This document shows, in pieces, positions 6,599 through 60,449 of a stretch of 64,000 nucleotides of DNA. Under the pieces are notes generated by a model. The model made no database searches. It was not told the origin of the DNA and saw only the letters and a program-made list of their open reading frames with translations. The translations under genes were made by a program, and so were the position numbers. Source of the stretch: Rickettsia tillamookensis (lineage in GTDB: Bacteria > Pseudomonadota > Alphaproteobacteria > Rickettsiales > Rickettsiaceae); contig NZ_CP060138.2 in the NCBI RefSeq assembly GCF_016743795.2, positions 186,001 to 250,000 of the forward strand. Reading direction: 5' to 3'. Numbering within the stretch: position 1 is the stretch's first letter; every line of letters begins with the position of its first letter.

Positions 6599-6605
6599 AA
6601 CATAC

Positions 6606-6633
6606 TTGCTTTTATGGAAAAAGTAATTATAAT
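6606..6633 (+). promoter_or_regulatory. Candidate sigma-70-type promoter for the rpsL-rpsG-fusA operon
   Basis: TTGCTT (6606-6611) and TATAAT (6628-6633) are separated by 16 bases and lie about 125 bases before the rpsL ATG. A second TATAAT occurs at 6661-6666 but without a good -35 box. In such A/T-rich DNA a -10 box alone means little; the pair is what makes this worth listing. Confidence 0.4.
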
Positions 6634-6690
6634 TTAAATTTAGTGTAATTTACAAATTCTTATAATTTGTATTTAGAAATGATTTAAAAT

Positions 6691-6718
6691 AAAGGGTGGA
6701 AGTATTTTTTCACCCTTT
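6691..6718 (+). terminator. Hairpin in the rpsL leader, terminator or attenuator
   Basis: Perfect 8-bp stem AAAGGGTG / CACCCTTT with a 12-base loop, between glnP and rpsL. No long T run follows directly, though T-rich DNA comes about 20 bases later. It could end glnP transcription, or sit in the leader of the ribosomal operon if the promoter at 6606-6633 is used. Confidence 0.45.
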
Positions 6719-6759
6719 AATTATCGTATATATAAGTTTTTTTTGGAGTATTTTTTTTA

Positions 6760-18753: not shown

Positions 18754-18833
18754 TATTTGGTATTCAGGCGGGAATGACATATAGCAAGCAATAGGAACTC
18801 TAGTAAAATAGTATACTCGGAGTAAATAAAAAA

Positions 18834-18970
18834 TTGATAGACGAAGGTCAATTTCAAAAAGAGCTAGGAGTTCACAAGGCGAGGAACGCAGCGTATACTT
18901 AATACGTGAGTACCGAAGCTCTTGTAGAACGACAACGCCAATTTTTGAAATTCTACCTGGGTATATACGA
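18834..18970 (-). repeat. RPE1 copy a, between rpoB and rpoC
   Basis: On the minus strand it reads ttcaaaaattggcgttgtcg, ...ctcacgtattaagtatacgc, tgcgttcctcgccttgtgaa, ctcctagctctttttgaaat, tgaccttcgtctatc. This is the same order of blocks as the copy after pepA. It ends about 20 bases before the rpoC start. Confidence 0.8.
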
Positions 18971-24869: not shown

Positions 24870-26375
24870 ATGCTTAACATAAACTTTGTGAATGAAGAAT
24901 CATCTACTAATCAGGGTCTAGTAGTTTTTATTGATGAACAGTTAAAGCTTGATAGTAATTTAATAGGGCTTGATCAACAACATCATGGATTAATTTCTAA
25001 AACTATTCAGAATAAACTGCAGTTTACCGGTAAATATGGACAGATTAAAGTTATTCCGTCTGTCATTAAATCAGGCGAGGTTAGATATTTGATAATAGCA
25101 GGTCTTGGGAATGAAGAAAAATTAACTGAAGCAAAAATTGAAGAATTAGGAGGTAAAATCTTACAAAATGCAATTTGTGCTAAAATTTCTACTATCGGCT
25201 TAAAAGTTACAAATAAAATTAGCAGGTTTACATCTCAAATATTTGCATCTTTAATTGCTAGTGGTGCATTTCTTGCTTCTTACAGATTTGATAAATATAG
25301 AACTACTTTAAAAGAAGCAGAGAAGTTTGCAGTAGAGTCAATTGAGATTTTTACCGATAATAGTACTGAAGCGGCAAAATTATTTGAAGTCAAAAAATTA
25401 ATTGCTGAGGCAGTATTTTTTACACGAGATATATGTAATGAACCGTCAAATATTAAAACTCCGCAAGTTTATGCTGAAAGAATAGTTGATATACTTGAAC
25501 CCTTAGGAGTAGATGTTGACGTTATCGGTGAACGTGAGATGAAAAATCTTGGTATGGGAGCATTACTTGGAGTTGGTCAAGGTTCACAAAACGAGTCAAA
25601 ATTAGTAGTGATGGAATATAAAGGCGGCAGTAAAGATGCTCTGACTATTGCTTTGGTTGGTAAAGGAGTGATTTTTGATACAGGTGGTATTTCCTTAAAG
25701 CCGTCAAGTAATATGCATTTAATGAGATACGATATGGGAGGTTCTGCAGCAGTCGTGGGTGCTATGATTGCGGTTGCCGGTCAAAAATTACCTGTAAATA
25801 TAGTCGGTGTTGTAGGGCTTGTAGAAAATATGCCGTCCGGTAATGCACAGCGTCCAGGGGATGTGGTAACTACTATGTCAGGGCAAACTGCCGAAGTTTT
25901 AAATACCGATGCAGAAGGGCGTTTAGTACTTGCTGATGCCGTTTGGTATGCACAAGAAAAATTTAAGCCTAAATGCGTGATTGACGTTGCAACTCTAACA
26001 GGAGCGATAACCGTAGCACTCGGCAGTACATATGCCGGTTGTTTTTCCAATAATGATGAGTTAGCTGATAAGTTAATAAAAATAGGGGAAGAAGTTAATG
26101 AAAAACTTTGGAGGATGCCGCTTCATGATGAATACGATGCAATGATCAATTCCGACATAGCCGATATGGCAAATATCGGGAATGTTCCGGGAGCTGCTGG
26201 AAGTTGCACGGCTGCACATTTCATTAAACGTTTCATTAAAGAGGGGGTTGATTGGGCACATTTAGATATAGCAGGCGTTGCAAATAGTAATAAAGCTTCA
26301 GCACTCGGTCCGAAAGGGGCAGTTGGGTATGGTGTGAGATTACTTGAAAAATTTATCAAAGAATATACTCGATGA
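24870..26375 (+). CDS. pepA: Cytosol (leucyl) aminopeptidase
   Basis: M17 metallo-aminopeptidase that removes N-terminal residues from peptides; in E. coli PepA is also a DNA-binding recombination accessory factor. The signature NTDAEGRLVLADA is at residues about 344-356, and the metal and catalytic region VGKGVIFDTGGISLKPS is intact. AAGGA at 24859-24863 abuts an ATG at 24864, which is too close, but lies six bases before the ATG at 24870; I therefore take the protein as 501 aa starting MLNINFVNEE. The last codons (EYTR) and the stop fall within the edge of an RPE1 element. Confidence 0.96.
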   Translation: MLNINFVNEESSTNQGLVVFIDEQLKLDSNLIGLDQQHHGLISKTIQNKLQFTGKYGQIKVIPSVIKSGEVRYLIIAGLGNEEKLTEAKIEELGGKILQNAICAKISTIGLKVTNKISRFTSQIFASLIASGAFLASYRFDKYRTTLKEAEKFAVESIEIFTDNSTEAAKLFEVKKLIAEAVFFTRDICNEPSNIKTPQVYAERIVDILEPLGVDVDVIGEREMKNLGMGALLGVGQGSQNESKLVVMEYKGGSKDALTIALVGKGVIFDTGGISLKPSSNMHLMRYDMGGSAAVVGAMIAVAGQKLPVNIVGVVGLVENMPSGNAQRPGDVVTTMSGQTAEVLNTDAEGRLVLADAVWYAQEKFKPKCVIDVATLTGAITVALGSTYAGCFSNNDELADKLIKIGEEVNEKLWRMPLHDEYDAMINSDIADMANIGNVPGAAGSCTAAHFIKRFIKEGVDWAHLDIAGVANSNKASALGPKGAVGYGVRLLEKFIKEYTR

Positions 26376-26491
26376 ACTTCAAAAATTGGCTACGTCGTTC
26401 TACAAGTGCTGCGGTACTCACGTATTAAGTATACGCTGCGTTCCTCGTCTTGTGAACTCCTTGCTCTTTTTGAAGTTGATCTTCGTATATC
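26364..26491 (+). repeat. RPE1 copy b, overlapping the pepA 3' end
   Basis: Blocks in order: atactcgatgaacttcaaaa, attggctacgtcgttctaca, actcacgtattaagtatacg, ctgcgttcctcgtcttgtga, actccttgctctttttgaag, ttgatcttcgtatatc. The first block includes the last two pepA codons and its stop. A 71-codon ORF reading through it is judged spurious. Confidence 0.8.
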
Positions 26492-26542
26492 ACATATTAC
26501 TTAGTATATTATACCTACCATTTGTTTATTCTGAATATAATT

Positions 26543-38589: not shown

Positions 38590-38711
38590 AGTTTTATTAT
38601 TTTGAGTGGTATAGTCTGATGTTATTTCCGTGAGGCATTGTTGTGGGTATCAATTCCATCTCTGTCATCCTAGCTAACTTTATCAATGTTGTTGCATGGT
38701 TCGGTTTTCAG

Positions 38712-38829
38712 CGTCATTGCAAGGAAATTACGTAAGTAATTGACGAAGCAATCCAATAAAAAATGTTGAATTTAGCATTTTTTATTATTTTTTCTGGATT
38801 GCCACGTCGCTTCGCTCCTCGCAATGACG
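38712..38829. repeat. R1 palindromic repeat with outer inverted repeats
   Basis: cgtcattgcaaggaaattac at the left, cgcttcgctcctcgcaatga then cg at the right. Outside it, gttgttgcatggttcggttt on the left and, inverted, gttgtttcatgtctaccaaa on the right form a further pair, the same kind of outer end seen on the R2 copies. Confidence 0.8.
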
Positions 38830-38888
38830 ATTTGGTAGACATGAAACAACGTCAGTCAAGCCATGGTATGACAATTTACATAACCTTA

Positions 38889-39449: not shown

Positions 39450-39507
39450 ATTTATTCATCCATATATTTATTTTATCTGTATATTATTATTAGTACATGA
39501 ACCAAGT

Positions 39508-39670
39508 ACATTATTGCGTGGATCGGTTTTCTATTGTCATCCCGCGAGCTTGTAGCGGGATCCAGTTAAAATACTAAAATTATTAGTATTTGTTTATTAT
39601 TTTTATGGACCCCGTGGTCAAGCCACGGGGTGACATAGTGGATTTTACTAGTCCACGCAACAAGGCCTCC
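39508..39670. repeat. R2 repeat with outer inverted repeats, between frr and pyrH
   Basis: Core gtcatcccgcgagcttgtag ... cacggggtgac at 39536-39634. Outer ends: cattattgcgtggatcggtt on the left and, inverted, ccttgttgcgtggactagta on the right, so the whole unit is about 163 bp, the same as the two copies that show duplicated target sites. Confidence 0.78.
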
Positions 39671-47142: not shown

Positions 47143-47270
47143 TTATACTCGTTTTATTTGAAAAATTGGCGGCGTTACTTCTCGCTTATAATCCTCACGT
47201 ATTATATATACGCTGCGGTTATAAGCTTCAAAGTGCCTTGCTCTTTTCCAAATAAAACTTCGTCTACGCA
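47143..47270 (+). repeat. RPE1 copy c, immediately upstream of rseP
   Basis: Blocks ttatactcgttttatttgaa then aaattggcggcg, cctcacgtattatatatacg then ctgcgg, cttgctcttttccaaataaa then acttcgtctac. The left end is four bases from the rseP start codon (minus strand). Confidence 0.75.
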
Positions 47271-47990: not shown

Positions 47991-48227
47991 AAAATTGGCT
48001 ACAGCGTATTTCAGAAAGCTTGATACAAGCGAATTTTGCAGGATTCGCCTGTGCTCACGTAGTATATCTACGCTGCGCAGGCTTACCTTTAAATTCATCT
48101 TGTCTGAAGCTTTCTGAAATACGCTGTAAGTTGTCCTATAAGTACGCAGGTAGCCACGTATTAAGTATACGCTCCGCTCCTCGTCTTATGGACTCCTTGC
48201 TCTTTTCCAAATTAAACTTCGTCTGCT
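47973..48227 (+). repeat. RPE1 copy d, interrupted by RPE2
   Basis: Left part catactcgtttaatttgaaa then aattggct; right part cacgtattaagtatacgctc, cgctcctcgtcttatggact, ccttgctcttttccaaatta then aacttcgtctgc. Between them lies a complete RPE2 (48001-48127). A 94-codon ORF running through both is judged spurious. Confidence 0.82.
48001..48127 (+). mobile_element. RPE2 element nested inside RPE1
   Basis: 127 bp bounded by a perfect 20-bp inverted repeat, acagcgtatttcagaaagct. Inside are gcgaattttgcaggattcgc and a central ctcacgtagtatatctacgc hairpin. Flanking RPE1 blocks are continuous when it is removed. A relative lies in frame in the SDHAF4-like gene. Confidence 0.78.
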
Positions 48228-48260
48228 TATTCTTCATTTATTTAAAGTATAAAAGATTTT

Positions 48261-48978: not shown

Positions 48979-50038
48979 AACATACTAGAGGACATAGATG
49001 ATAATTACTTATATCTCCTGTTGTTTTGACTTCCTGAGTGTATTCTTGATTGCAGCTTTGAAAATTATTATATATCCCAACTAAATTAGCTCCGGTTTCA
49101 GTTTCAACTATTTGATTATATAAATTAGTTTTTAAGTTTAGAGTATTTTTAGCATATTTTTGTGTTCCTGCTTCCCAATCATCTATGGTTAAAGTAATAT
49201 TCTGTTTTAAATCAGAAAAATTAACAAGTCCATGTTTACTGATTCCGGCTATTATTTCCTCAAAGCCTTCGACTATTCCATTAATTCCTAGATATTTTGT
49301 AGCTTTTTGCTTGGCAAAATTATATAAATATGATGCCCATTCTTCTGATTGTGATAGTCCTGTTTTTTTACCAGGAAGAACCATTGTTGTTTTTCCCAAA
49401 TGCTTATTAGTAATATTAATAAGATTATGTTTTGCATTATATATCTTAGAATGGGTAGCTAGCTCTTCTATTGGAGTTGTTACTTTTCCGGTAAATAAAT
49501 TTTTTTCTATGCCTCTTTCAATTATTGGTTTTGAGCCAGGGCTGTCAAAAGTTGTAGATTTATTAAAATGTAAGTTGCGAGAATGTATTTCTACTGAAGT
49601 TAAATCTGCAGTTATTGCTCCAAGTGAATGACCGCTAGTATTAAAAATATATTCTGTGGCTTTACTTAAGCCGCCTAATTTGTTAATTACTTCATTAACA
49701 AATTCCTGAAGTGGAGTTAGTTTAGTAGGTAAATAATGAAGAGCGATAAGTAAGTCGTCTAGTAAATCATATATATTGAATTTTGTACCGGCACTAGCAA
49801 TATGAACTTCTTTAGTTTCTTTATTTATAAATGCAACAGCTTTATAACCATATTTAGCAGTGTTGACATAATCACATGAAGCAGTCAGTATTTCCCAGCC
49901 GCTATCTGTTAATTGTTCATTGACCTTTGATGCTTCTAGATTATAAACATTTAAATCATCTGTTTTATATGCGAGGTCTAACCCTATATAAGCAAGTTTT
50001 TTAGTGCTAATATGTTTAGAATTTTTGTGCTTAGACAT
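48977..50038 (-). CDS. Lipase-like alpha/beta hydrolase (GHSLG), downstream paralogue
   Basis: 353 aa from the ATG at 50038, chosen because GAGG lies five bases before it; a longer frame starts at 50095 without such a site. The nucleophile elbow GHSLG (Ser138) occurs in YIFNTSGHSLGAITADL, followed by FNKSTTFDSPGSKPII, which may carry the acid residue. Class-3 lipase-like proteins have this spacing. About half the residues match the neighbour at 50445-51563, for example LDLAYKTDD, YGYKAVAFINKETKEVHIAS and the C-terminal layout. No signal peptide. Function (lipase, phospholipase or other esterase) is inferred only from the motif. Confidence 0.7.
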   Translation of the reverse strand: MSKHKNSKHISTKKLAYIGLDLAYKTDDLNVYNLEASKVNEQLTDSGWEILTASCDYVNTAKYGYKAVAFINKETKEVHIASAGTKFNIYDLLDDLLIALHYLPTKLTPLQEFVNEVINKLGGLSKATEYIFNTSGHSLGAITADLTSVEIHSRNLHFNKSTTFDSPGSKPIIERGIEKNLFTGKVTTPIEELATHSKIYNAKHNLINITNKHLGKTTMVLPGKKTGLSQSEEWASYLYNFAKQKATKYLGINGIVEGFEEIIAGISKHGLVNFSDLKQNITLTIDDWEAGTQKYAKNTLNLKTNLYNQIVETETGANLVGIYNNFQSCNQEYTQEVKTTGDISNYHLCPLVC

Positions 50039-50451: not shown

Positions 50452-51563
50452 ATCATTGATATTAAATTATTATTTATATTGCCTATTTGTTCAACTTCCA
50501 TAGCACAAGATTGTTGCAAATCATTATATGCCCAATGGAATACATCTACTCCAACCATACTAGTATATTCATCATCAGTAATTCTAGTGGTATCTAGTAA
50601 ATATACGTCCTTGCCGCTAGATGGAATAGCTTTAAGTTTTTGAGTATCTTCGTTATTTTCTAATATTTGTTCTTTCCAATCGGCTATAGGTAAAACAGCA
50701 TTACCTTTTAAATCAGCAAAATTCTTTAGCTTATGATTGTTTAATCCTTCAACCATTTTATTAATACCTAGATATTCTGCAGCTTTGTAAGCGGCAGAGC
50801 CAGCCATATTATATAAATATGTTCCCCATCCTTCTGCTTTTGATGATTCTGATTTCTCGATATTATTTACTTTCGGTAGAACTAAGTTTATTTTACCGGC
50901 ATGATTATTAGTAGTATTAATAATATTAGGTTTTGCATTATATACCTCGGAATGTTTAGCTAACTCTTCTAGCGGAGTTAGTACTTTTCCGGTAAATAAA
51001 TCCTGATTTATAGCGTATTTAATTACTTCTTGTGAACCTGGGCTGTCAAAGGTTACAGATTTATTAAAATTTAAATTACGAGAATGTAATTCTACGCCGG
51101 TTAAATCCGCAACTATTGCTCCAAGTGAATGACCGCTAGTCTCAAAAATATATTCTGCAGCTTTCTCAATACCGCCTATTTTTTCAATTACTTCATCAAC
51201 AAATTTTTGAGCCGTTTTTAGTTTATTAGGAGCATAATGGAAAGTGATAAGTGCATCATCCCATACGTCATTCATATCTGCTTTTGTGCCGGCACTAGAA
51301 ATATGAACGACTTTAGTTTCCTTATTTATAAATGCAACAGCTTTATAACCATATTGAGCTGTATTTGAATTATCACAAGAAGCAGCAAGTATTTCAAATC
51401 CACTACCTACTAAATGATTACCATCTGTCGTTAATGCTTCTGCAAGGTATCGATTTGTATCATCTGTCTTGTACGCAAGATTTACTCCTAAATGGGCAAA
51501 TTCCTTATGATTTATAGCATTTGTAGGAATTTCTGCTTTATTCACAAATTCAAAATTTTCCAT
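50445..51563 (-). CDS. Lipase-like alpha/beta hydrolase (GHSLG), upstream paralogue
   Basis: 372 aa with nucleophile elbow GHSLG (Ser146) in YIFETSGHSLGAIVADL, then FNKSVTFDSPGSQEVI. The N-terminal part has LGVNLAYKTDDTNRYLAEAL and YGYKAVAFINKETKVVHISS, and the C-terminus ends NINNNLISMIC. It shares these blocks with the gene at 48977-50038, so the pair arose by duplication. No signal peptide or lipobox, so if exported it would need a non-Sec route. I recognise it as lipase class 3-like only; its catalytic His is not certain from inspection. Confidence 0.72.
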   Translation of the reverse strand: MENFEFVNKAEIPTNAINHKEFAHLGVNLAYKTDDTNRYLAEALTTDGNHLVGSGFEILAASCDNSNTAQYGYKAVAFINKETKVVHISSAGTKADMNDVWDDALITFHYAPNKLKTAQKFVDEVIEKIGGIEKAAEYIFETSGHSLGAIVADLTGVELHSRNLNFNKSVTFDSPGSQEVIKYAINQDLFTGKVLTPLEELAKHSEVYNAKPNIINTTNNHAGKINLVLPKVNNIEKSESSKAEGWGTYLYNMAGSAAYKAAEYLGINKMVEGLNNHKLKNFADLKGNAVLPIADWKEQILENNEDTQKLKAIPSSGKDVYLLDTTRITDDEYTSMVGVDVFHWAYNDLQQSCAMEVEQIGNINNNLISMIC

Positions 51564-52336: not shown

Positions 52337-52364
52337 AATTAACACTCCTGCGAAGTGAAGAGTT

Positions 52365-52492
52365 GATATACGAAGATCAACTTGGAAAAGAGCAAGGAGT
52401 CTGTAAGCCGAGGAGCGGAGCGTACAAAAGTACGTGAGCATTCGAGGACTTACAAAGACGACACAGCCAATTTTTCAAGTTCATCGAGTATA
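52365..52492 (-). repeat. RPE1 copy e, between SDHAF4-like gene and rsmE
   Basis: Read on the minus strand: atatactcgatgaacttgaa then aaattggctg, ctcacgtacttttgtacgct, ccgctcctcggcttacagac, tccttgctcttttccaagtt then gatcttcgtatatc. It spans nearly all of the divergent gap and ends two bases before the rsmE ATG. Confidence 0.8.
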
Positions 52493-57597: not shown

Positions 57598-57696
57598 CGT
57601 CATTGCGAGGAGCGAAGCGACGTGGCAATCTCATGAAATAGTAACAAACTCCTGAGATTGCTTCGTCAATTGCTATGCAATTTTCTCGCAATGACG
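57598..57696. repeat. R1 palindromic repeat
   Basis: cgtcattgcgaggagcgaag at the left, ttttctcgcaatgacg at the right, with the caatctcatga / ctcctgagattg centre. It lies between the HU-like gene and holB and ends 22 bases before the holB start. Confidence 0.84.
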
Positions 57697-58552: not shown

Positions 58553-58714
58553 GGCGTTATTGCATGGATAGGTAAAACCCGTTGTGTCACTTAGTTCGCT
58601 TGACCGCGAGATCCATAAAAACAACTTGAAATACTAATAATTTTAGTATTTTTAACTGGATCCTGCGATCAAGTCGCAGGATGACAACGGAAAATCGATC
58701 CATGCAACAACGCC
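58553..58714. mobile_element. R2 element with terminal inverted repeats and 9-bp flanking duplication
   Basis: 162 bp. Left end ggcgttattgcatggatagg, inverted right end ggcgttgttgcatggatcga. The inner R2 arms gcttgaccgcgagatccata and actggatcctgcgatcaagt are present. Flanking bases tccataaaa (58544-58552) and tacataaaa (58715-58723) match at 8 of 9, as expected for a target-site duplication. Confidence 0.72.
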
Positions 58715-60143: not shown

Positions 60144-60176
60144 TAGTAAATAGACGTTGTTGCGTGGATACTGAGT

Positions 60177-60449
60177 CGTCATTGCGAGGAGCGAAGGGCT
60201 TTGTTGCATAGCTCGGTTTTTTTGTTGTTATCCCGTGATTTATTCACGGGATCCAGTTAAAAATACTAATAATATTAGTACTTTTAGTTGTTTTACTGGA
60301 TACCGTGGACAAGCCACGGTATGACACTCAGCAGGTTTTCCGAGCCATGCAACAACGCCGGAGCGAAGCGACGTGGCAATCTCGTAAAATAATAACAAAC
60401 TCCTGAGATTGCTTCGTCGAATTACTACATAATTCTTCTCGCAATGACG
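60177..60449. repeat. R1 palindromic repeat split by an R2 insertion
   Basis: Left part cgtcattgcgaggagcgaag, right part ggagcgaagcgacgtggcaa ... gcaatgacg. Between them lies a complete R2 element (60197-60359). Without it and one copy of ggagcgaag, the R1 copy is of normal length (about 101 bp). Outer flanks acgttgttgcgtggatactg and, inverted, acctgcgtggagcagttttc form a further pair. Confidence 0.85.
60197..60359. mobile_element. R2 element inserted in R1, with 9-bp target-site duplication
   Basis: 163 bp. Left end ggctttgttgcatagctcgg, inverted right end ggcgttgttgcatggctcgg. Inner R2 arms gttatcccgtgatttattca and ataccgtggacaagccacgg. Exact duplication ggagcgaag on both sides (60188-60196 and 60360-60368). 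Confidence 0.82.

Follow-up and report, generated by a model that had tools for sequence, protein, structure and literature searches.

A probable IS5/IS903-like miniature element nested at a fixed position in a palindromic repeat of Rickettsia tillamookensis

A miniature element inside a palindromic repeat

The window analyzed here is a 64,000-nucleotide stretch of Rickettsia tillamookensis DNA, bases 186001–250000 of a 1.44-Mb contig. Direct reading of positions 60177–60449 reveals R1, a palindromic repeat with a CGTC tag, which is interrupted by R2, a unit of 163 bp. The preliminary description of this DNA had claimed 20-bp inverted ends for R2 and an exact 9-bp repeat, GGAGCGAAG, on both sides of it, and both are borne out by the sequence (repeat copies at 60188–60196 and 60360–60368). 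Two types of unit are distinguished below by their ends and by how far inward from the CGTC/TGTC tag they are inserted in REP hairpins: 11 bp for type A, with ends GGC[G/T]TTGTTGCATGGCTCG, and 5 bp for type B, with ends GGCATTGTTGCGTGGAT. The features of the locus, followed by three other units of the family in the window, are:

38685..38853, + strand: R1-type core between degenerate, type A-like ends (end motifs, flank comparison)
39507..39667, + strand: type B-ended unit with R2-type (TGTCATCCCG) core (end motifs, flank comparison)
58553..58714, + strand: type B-ended unit with R2-like core and near-duplication TCCATAAAA/TACATAAAA (8/9)
60153..60170, + strand: type B-like outer end of the host R1 unit, GACGTTGTTGCGTGGATA (sequence)
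60177..60187, + strand: target REP hairpin, CGTC tag plus initial bases of the stem, CGTCATTGCGA (sequence)
60188..60196, + strand: 9-bp target duplication, left copy, GGAGCGAAG (sequence)
60197..60359, + strand: R2, 163-bp type A miniature element (sequence)
60197..60216, + strand: left terminal inverted repeat of R2, GGCTTTGTTGCATAGCTCGG (end-motif search)
60226..60256, + strand: R2 core REP 1, with tag TGTT, 9-bp stem ATCCCGTGA, 5-nt loop, stem and tail CCAG
60296..60326, − strand: R2 core REP 2, tag outward, TGTC on the minus strand (sequence)
60340..60359, − strand: right terminal inverted repeat of R2, GGCGTTGTTGCATGGCTCGG (end-motif search)
60360..60368, + strand: 9-bp target duplication, right copy, GGAGCGAAG (sequence)
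60369..60449, + strand: remainder of the interrupted R1 REP dimer, starting CGACGTGGCAATC (sequence)

In the window, a type A element thus sits inside a REP belonging to an R1 unit whose ends are type B-like. CGTCATTGCGA occupies the 11 bp before the duplicated target, and the same 11-bp offset is found in most copies. The opposite outer end of the host R1 unit, just past 60449, is degenerate; at the orthologous site in genome G007, an R1-type unit has type B-like ends on both sides. The similar outer ends previously noticed around the R1 copies at 38.7 and 60.2 kb are real, but degenerate on one side. An uninterrupted relative of R1 lies within the window at ∼57598–57667, with 95% identity to 60360–60418 over 59 bp.

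The core of R2 is a head-to-head REP dimer with both tags facing outward, and its first REP fits the published description of CGTC-REPs, with the tag mutated to TGTT (PMC3733652; Di Nocera et al. 2013). The traits of CGTC-REPs and of the Rickettsia palindromic elements (RPEs) are found in both R1 and the R2 core: a CGTC/TGTC tag, an 8–9-bp stem starting AT, a CCA tail and head-to-head dimers. The deviations are the TGTT tag in R2 and an imperfect stem in R1. R2 also shows the traits of a MITE, being short and devoid of a transposase gene, with terminal inverted repeats, a constant duplication length, many copies and both empty and filled sites.

Other members of the family are plentiful. The end motif occurs five times in the window at up to 3 mismatches, against a mean of 0.01 in 100 shuffles, and 127 times genome-wide at up to 2 mismatches, against 0 for a reversed control pattern. 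A whole-genome search with the repeat returned 91 match rows, and R2-like cores were found at at least 43 places in the fetched stretches of the same genome; since the whole-genome search scored 40 candidates and the analysis covers the fetched places, this copy number is a lower bound. In the window, the unit at 38685–38853 has a TGTC tag 20 bases out on one flank (an 11+9 register), the unit at 39507–39667 has a CGTC tag 14 bases out on one flank (5+9), and the unit at 58553–58714 is present at the same place in other genomes too. Locus L041 (genome positions 650051–650644) holds two R2 halves separated by unrelated sequence; its flanks are inverted and identical over at least 60 bp, which makes any outer duplication unreadable, and it was classed as a rearrangement (an inverted duplication).

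Duplication length, target position and empty sites

To characterize the duplication, inward-facing end pairs 90–420 bp apart were collected from all fetched loci and deduplicated by sequence. The 152 resulting candidates include 62 with two type A ends (GGCNTTGTTGCATRGCTC) and 39 with two type B ends (GGCNTTGTTGCRTGGAYM); the pool contains orthologous copies and loci fetched via end or tag patterns, neither of which biases the duplication length. Exact 9-bp direct repeats flank 15 of the 62 type A units and 3 of the 39 type B units, and none of the units in either set has a longest exact flanking repeat of any other length from 3 to 20 bp. With up to one mismatch, 9-bp repeats flank 18/62 type A and 9/39 type B units, and no repeat of another length between 6 and 13 bp appears; three type A repeats at 4 bp and one at 5 bp fall where chance matters. 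No such 9-bp repeat accompanies 44 type A and 30 type B pairs. The fetched stretches of the window's genome hold 29 R2 copies of nearly full length; 12 of them have a duplication when up to one mismatch and a boundary shift of up to 3 bases are allowed, and 17 have no recognizable one.

The insertion point is a fixed position in CGTC-tagged REP hairpins, a feature absent from the preliminary description. We inspected 45 bases outside each of 127 end motifs (up to 3 mismatches) in the window and the fetched loci of its genome. In 37 of these, GTCAT begins 19 bases out from the end; a further 9 have it 13 bases out, and 5 at some other distance. The reverse complement, ATGAC, was found outside none of the 127. 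Counted from the C/T of the tag, the position of the end is base 20 for type A (11+9) and base 14 for type B (5+9). The 14-base register was also considered as a 3-bp duplication, a reading ruled out by the duplication-length count, which gives 9 bp.

The register was then scored in the 31 duplication-bearing units, with the tag taken as present at 5 or more of 6 letters. It stands at 20 in 17/18 type A pairs and 3/4 mixed pairs, and at 14 in 8/9 type B pairs (at 20 in 0/9), where four of the nine type B rows (L049, L052 at 2929, L054 and L056) are apparently one insertion in four genomes and two more (L257 and L264) come from loci fetched with a pattern demanding GTCAT near the end. The loci of the window's own genome were retrieved through R2 similarity or the end motif, independently of the tag. 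Here, 13 units with a type A end bear a duplication, and 11 of them have the tag at 20, which for a background of 1.6% (both sides) gives P ∼ 1e-18, with a background that ignores local repeat richness; the sharp offset of GTCAT among the 127 end motifs is the better control. Two duplications from the same genome, at L042 and L039, have no tag.

The target nonamers vary (GGAGCGAAG, GGCAAGCTA, AGCCATGAA, GGAGCCGTA, AGTTTTTCC and others), so that the constants are the tag and its distance rather than the nine bases themselves. By position counting, the 9-bp target is centered on the loop in hairpins with a 9-bp stem and 5-nt loop, e.g. TGTC-ATCCCGTGG-CTTGA-CCACGGGAT, and lies off the loop center in CGTCATTGC-type hairpins; because centering holds for one hairpin type only, distance from the tag is the constant. 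The tag would be read as DNA sequence, not as an extruded hairpin. Of the 29 near-full-length R2 copies, 10 have a tag at 20 on the left only, 8 on the right only, 6 on both sides and 5 on neither. R2 has thus entered in both orientations, which argues for independent events; the copies tagged on both sides suggest flank exchange or later recombination between copies.

Empty sites were sought by comparison among species, as the preliminary description had proposed. The window's genome has a further R2 copy at 1338061–1338223 with the duplication CTTCGCTCC, the same target as in the window. At the orthologous site in G005, R2 is absent and the nine bases CTTCGCTCC occur once; the alignment contains a single 172-bp gap (163+9), and 380/391 of the other positions are identical. 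The site orthologous to that of the window was also followed across several genomes. In G007, an R1-type dimer lies between type B-like ends with its REP intact. G005 has that dimer with a 171-bp type B unit in its REP, 5 bp inside the tag and flanked by TTGTGAGGA/TTGCGAGGA; when the unit and one duplicate are removed, 239/254 positions are identical to the empty G007 site. In G014, the place is taken by a unit inserted at 11 bp whose core is different and whose ends are type A-like, the right one degenerate. The R1 spacer in the window differs from that of G007, so the two occupy the same place but are perhaps different R1 copies. No clean empty allele was found at L012, where almost every genome has a different sequence between the same genes. 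Two findings would have spoken against transposition, namely empty sites lacking the duplication and an origin of the composite by recombination between existing copies; neither was seen.

A candidate partner transposase

R2 encodes no transposase, and the earlier suggestion to look for such a gene bounded by the same ends led to other Rickettsia genomes (G021 and G014). A search with the NF033579 profile (bit-score cut-off 140) gave matches in 9 of 23 genomes of the genus, two above the cut-off, and none in the window's genome. A search with the transposase protein across the family matched 20 of 85 genomes and failed to match the other 65, the window's genome among them.

The most complete element is found in G021, as two 1150-bp copies identical at 1149/1150 bases. 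It has an intact 321-aa transposase frame from ATG and the ends GGCTTTGTTGCATGGCTCG / GGCGTTGTTGCATGGCTG. The protein scores 228 bits with NF033579 and matches Pfam DDE_Tnp_1_5 and DDE_Tnp_1 above cut-off, and, as a DDE transposase of the IS5_2 model, places the element in the IS5 family. One flank of each copy (L079, L088) lies in a TGTC-tagged REP at exactly 11+9. The other two flanks are reverse complements of each other, which indicates that the copies were rearranged and leaves no flanking duplication. In G014, the element is multicopy and contigs break inside it, and 10 junctions were fetched. The tag is at 20 in 5 of these (once as AGTCAT), 3 run into the far arm of an R1 hairpin, ending CTTCG[CT]TCC, and one has neither tag nor hairpin arm. 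Junctions L143 and L142, one pair of contig ends, match over a 9-bp flank, TCTTAAAGG. An insertion sequence with the same ends and the same target register as R2 is present in related genomes; one end of the G014 element matches the right end of R2, GGCGTTGTTGCATGGCTCGG, at all 20 bases. The two have ∼20–22 end bases in common and not the interior, hence R2 is not a simple internal deletion of that element.

The remaining relatives are more varied. In G030, the tag is at 20 in 2 of 4 flanks; three copies in G081 have in common one flank with the tag at 20, and in G054 it is at exactly 20 in none of the 4 insertion-sequence flanks with the end found. G017 has a type B-like fragment at a contig end, with end GGCATTGTTGCGTGGATAAG, the tag at 14 and a 73-aa frame. 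A more distant relative in another genus (G058), 1122 bp long with end GGCTTTGTTGCGTGGATAG, is bounded by an exact duplication of 9 bp, with no tag seen in its flanks, and four relatives in other genera, with ends GGCTTTGTTGCATGAATC, show no duplication. Plasmid records yielded matches to the transposase that were all below 60% identity among the at least 5000 listed, and no blastn match to R2. In a protein-pattern scan for the transposase across named genomes, 63 stretches matched the pattern and none was confirmed. IS5-type elements with ends GGCTTTGTTCGGAAGGGTA (L080, L081, L093, L095 and others, in G005, G020 and G021) were set aside as a different insertion sequence.

The combination of tag and end is itself widespread. 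The pattern GTCAT-N(0-30)-GGCNTTGTTGCATGG was found in 22 of the 23 genomes of the genus, and 0 times in G009. Counts are highest in G021 (179), followed by G018 (49), with 30 in G014 and 23 in the window's genome. The genome with the intact element thus has the highest count, but G018 has no transposase match, so the link between the two is loose. With the spacing fixed at 14 bases, 98 stretches were found in named species-level genomes, and the 80 of these that were listed comprise 78 from Rickettsia, 1 from Rickettsiales and 1 from a Desulfobacterales bin. The last (L305, JAOZRT010000193.1) is a match to the tag-plus-end pattern outside Rickettsiales, which may be due to chance, contamination or transfer.

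Nesting, origin and spread

To compare the cargo of the two end types, REP cores were classed by our own regular expressions as N (CGTCATTGCGAG), C (TGTCATCCCG/ACCGTG) or T (TGTCATTCC). The 62 type A cores comprise 31 C, 10 N, 9 T, 8 mixed and 4 unassigned; the 39 type B cores comprise 16 C, 7 T, 5 N, 10 mixed and 1 unassigned. The preliminary description had proposed one transposon family with exchangeable cores, and each end type does surround all three scored core classes; the proposal needs refining in that there are two end types, which insert in different registers. Both have REP-dimer cores of the same kinds, so that every element adds landing sites and nesting results. C-type REPs, e.g. 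TGTCATCCCGTGATTTATTC and TGTCATCCCGTGGCTTGTCC, are found directly outside type A ends and are also targets of the G014 insertion sequence, so the element's own core class is a target. When inner units were tested strictly for a complete pair of outer ends, both ends were present in 9 of the 55 rows counted, where two of the nine rows are one place and several outer ends have 4–5 mismatches. A three-level nest occurs at L009 (genome positions 905140–905480), where an outer palindrome, with its TGTC tag 14 bases from the next unit, contains a type B-ended R1 unit, which contains R2. The outermost arms are inverted and identical over ∼44 bp, which renders any outer duplication unreadable.

It is very likely that R2 is a type A, non-autonomous miniature element of an IS5/IS903-like family, mobilized by a DDE transposase in trans, which enters REPs in a fixed register and nests within its own kind. 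A transposase supplied in trans would cut and join the 20-bp inverted ends of R2, and a 9-bp staggered cut would produce the duplication of GGAGCGAAG. Rather than picking sites at random, the enzyme would enter REP hairpins that bear a CGTC/TGTC tag, and its 9-bp target would begin 11 bp inside the tag for type A ends and 5 bp inside it for type B ends. With a head-to-head REP dimer as core, every insertion would add landing sites, and nesting would follow. The transposase-driven, MITE-like insertion originally proposed for R2 is upheld by the single duplication length on many sequences, the empty site, the insertion in both orientations and the transposase gene with the same ends elsewhere. 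A broader proposition, which we favor with some reserve, is that of a self-targeting system: elements with their own target hairpins as core, two end types for the 5- and 11-bp positions, nested islands that spare genes, and core exchange between species via nesting and decay.

The marks of transposition could also be genuine and owed to another transposase, extinct or undetected, in which case the IS5/IS903-like element is a cousin with similar ends and target taste. We regard this as rather unlikely. It would fit the window's genome, which has no transposase match, and the fact that R2 and the insertion sequence have only end sequence in common; moreover, type B would need a second specificity, for which only the G017 fragment and the distant G058 element were found. 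Against it, the right end of R2 is that of the G014 element over 20 bases, and both use the 11+9 register. From ends, register and target, we infer that R2 was moved by an insertion sequence of the IS5/IS903 type or by a lost relative of it. The lack of a transposase match in the window's genome, and in 65 of 85 family genomes overall, indicates that this partner has been lost or acts elsewhere.

Two further explanations dispense with a DDE enzyme, and we consider both very improbable. In a repeat-rich genome (91 match rows) where many R2 copies lack a duplication (17/29), the composite might have arisen by recombination or gene conversion between pre-existing palindromes, with the 9-bp match as a by-product. 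Such an origin is at odds with a single duplication length across many unrelated sequences, with the 172-bp difference between empty and filled sites whose flanks otherwise align, and with R2 in both orientations. Alternatively, a tyrosine transposase (RAYT/IS200-type) acting on hairpins could move REP units without TIR-type ends. Terminal inverted repeats combined with a staggered duplication of 9 bp are characteristic of DDE transposition and point away from this, an argument that bears on R2 and the end types and not on the origin of bare REPs. Another REP superfamily, GTAG, has been linked to RAYT genes, and the portion of the same paper drawn on here states that no CGTC repeats flank such genes (PMC3733652).

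R1 and R2 resemble the RPEs, especially RPE-4/6/7, which are likewise short palindromic repeats of Rickettsia; our comparisons draw on parts of the papers cited, including PMC10969869 and PMC2635572. The CGTC-1 and CGTC-4 REPs of R. conorii are reported to correspond to RPE-6 and RPE-4, and the passages used here report no associated or dedicated transposase gene for CGTC repeats (PMC3733652). The target duplication of RPEs is entered as "?" in the relevant part of PMC2229807. RPE-4/6/7 types differ between species at orthologous sites and share an enriched ATGAC (PMC3767692), both of which would be explained by nested insertion into GTCAT-tagged hairpins. Relative to the RPE descriptions compared here, R2 adds an end motif, a 9-bp duplication, a register and a partner insertion sequence. 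R1 and the R2 core fit the CGTC-REPs in tag, 8–9-bp stem, loop, CCA tail and head-to-head dimers; unlike in the sections of PMC3733652 considered, here IS5-type elements both carry REPs and insert into them. REP sequences are specific insertion targets of ISPsy8, ISPa11, ISPpu9, ISPpu10, ISRm22 and ISRm19 (PMC1525189), and the present elements resemble these in that respect. Here, however, miniature derivatives carry the REP target inside, which the abstract of PMC1525189 does not describe, and the two end types differ in register. Another multicopy Rickettsia insertion sequence is ISRpe1 of R. peacockii, described in the part of PMC2791219 used without its ends or a link to palindromic elements. 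A literature search (titles and abstract openings, with the original RPE papers, Ogata 2000 and 2002, outside its scope) returned nothing that connects a 9-bp duplication or a transposase of the IS5/IS903 type with the palindromic elements of Rickettsia.

The partner element resembles the IS903 group of the IS5 family in its NF033579 transposase, its length of ∼1.15 kb and its GGCTTTGTTG-type ends. A 9-bp duplication may be a further likeness: it is seen in one pair of G014 contig ends and in the G058 relative, but not at the two G021 copies. IS903 itself has GGCTTTGTTG-type ends and a 9-bp duplication. Among the plasmid matches listed, IS903B proteins are 27.5–29.5% identical to the partner transposase. 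The fixed register in CGTC-REPs distinguishes the partner element, and we know of no habit of fixed-register REP insertion in IS903.

Self-nesting miniature transposons offer a mechanism for the spread of Rickettsia palindromic elements, also into protein-coding genes, for which a duplication length and a dedicated transposase have so far been lacking in the literature as represented here. A transposition assay could test what these data supply: a candidate enzyme, its end sequences, the length of the duplication and a predicted point of insertion. For the question of how DDE enzymes select targets, a transposon that creates its own, and whose two end types use two positions of one hairpin, is a useful case. 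If insertions do create landing sites, they would build nested islands instead of hitting genes, and self-nesting would thereby spare genes.

The window contains other repeats and features. A second palindromic family, with core CACGTATTAAGTATACGC and unrelated in sequence to R1 and R2, occurs at 18812–18953, 26374–26492, 47168–47266, 48127–48251 and 52353–52424. Elsewhere in the genome, the R2 copy of L042 (263986–264148), with its exact 9-bp duplication CTAGCAAGT, adjoins a TTCTGCGGTACT stretch resembling this CACGTATTAAGTATACGC-core family. A 300-nt direct repeat (78%) at window positions 49374–49673 and 50875–51174 lies in two adjacent 372-aa minus-strand ORFs, which are tandem paralogues, and a Rickettsia rpsL leader (RF01774, 140 bits) is found at 6599–6730.
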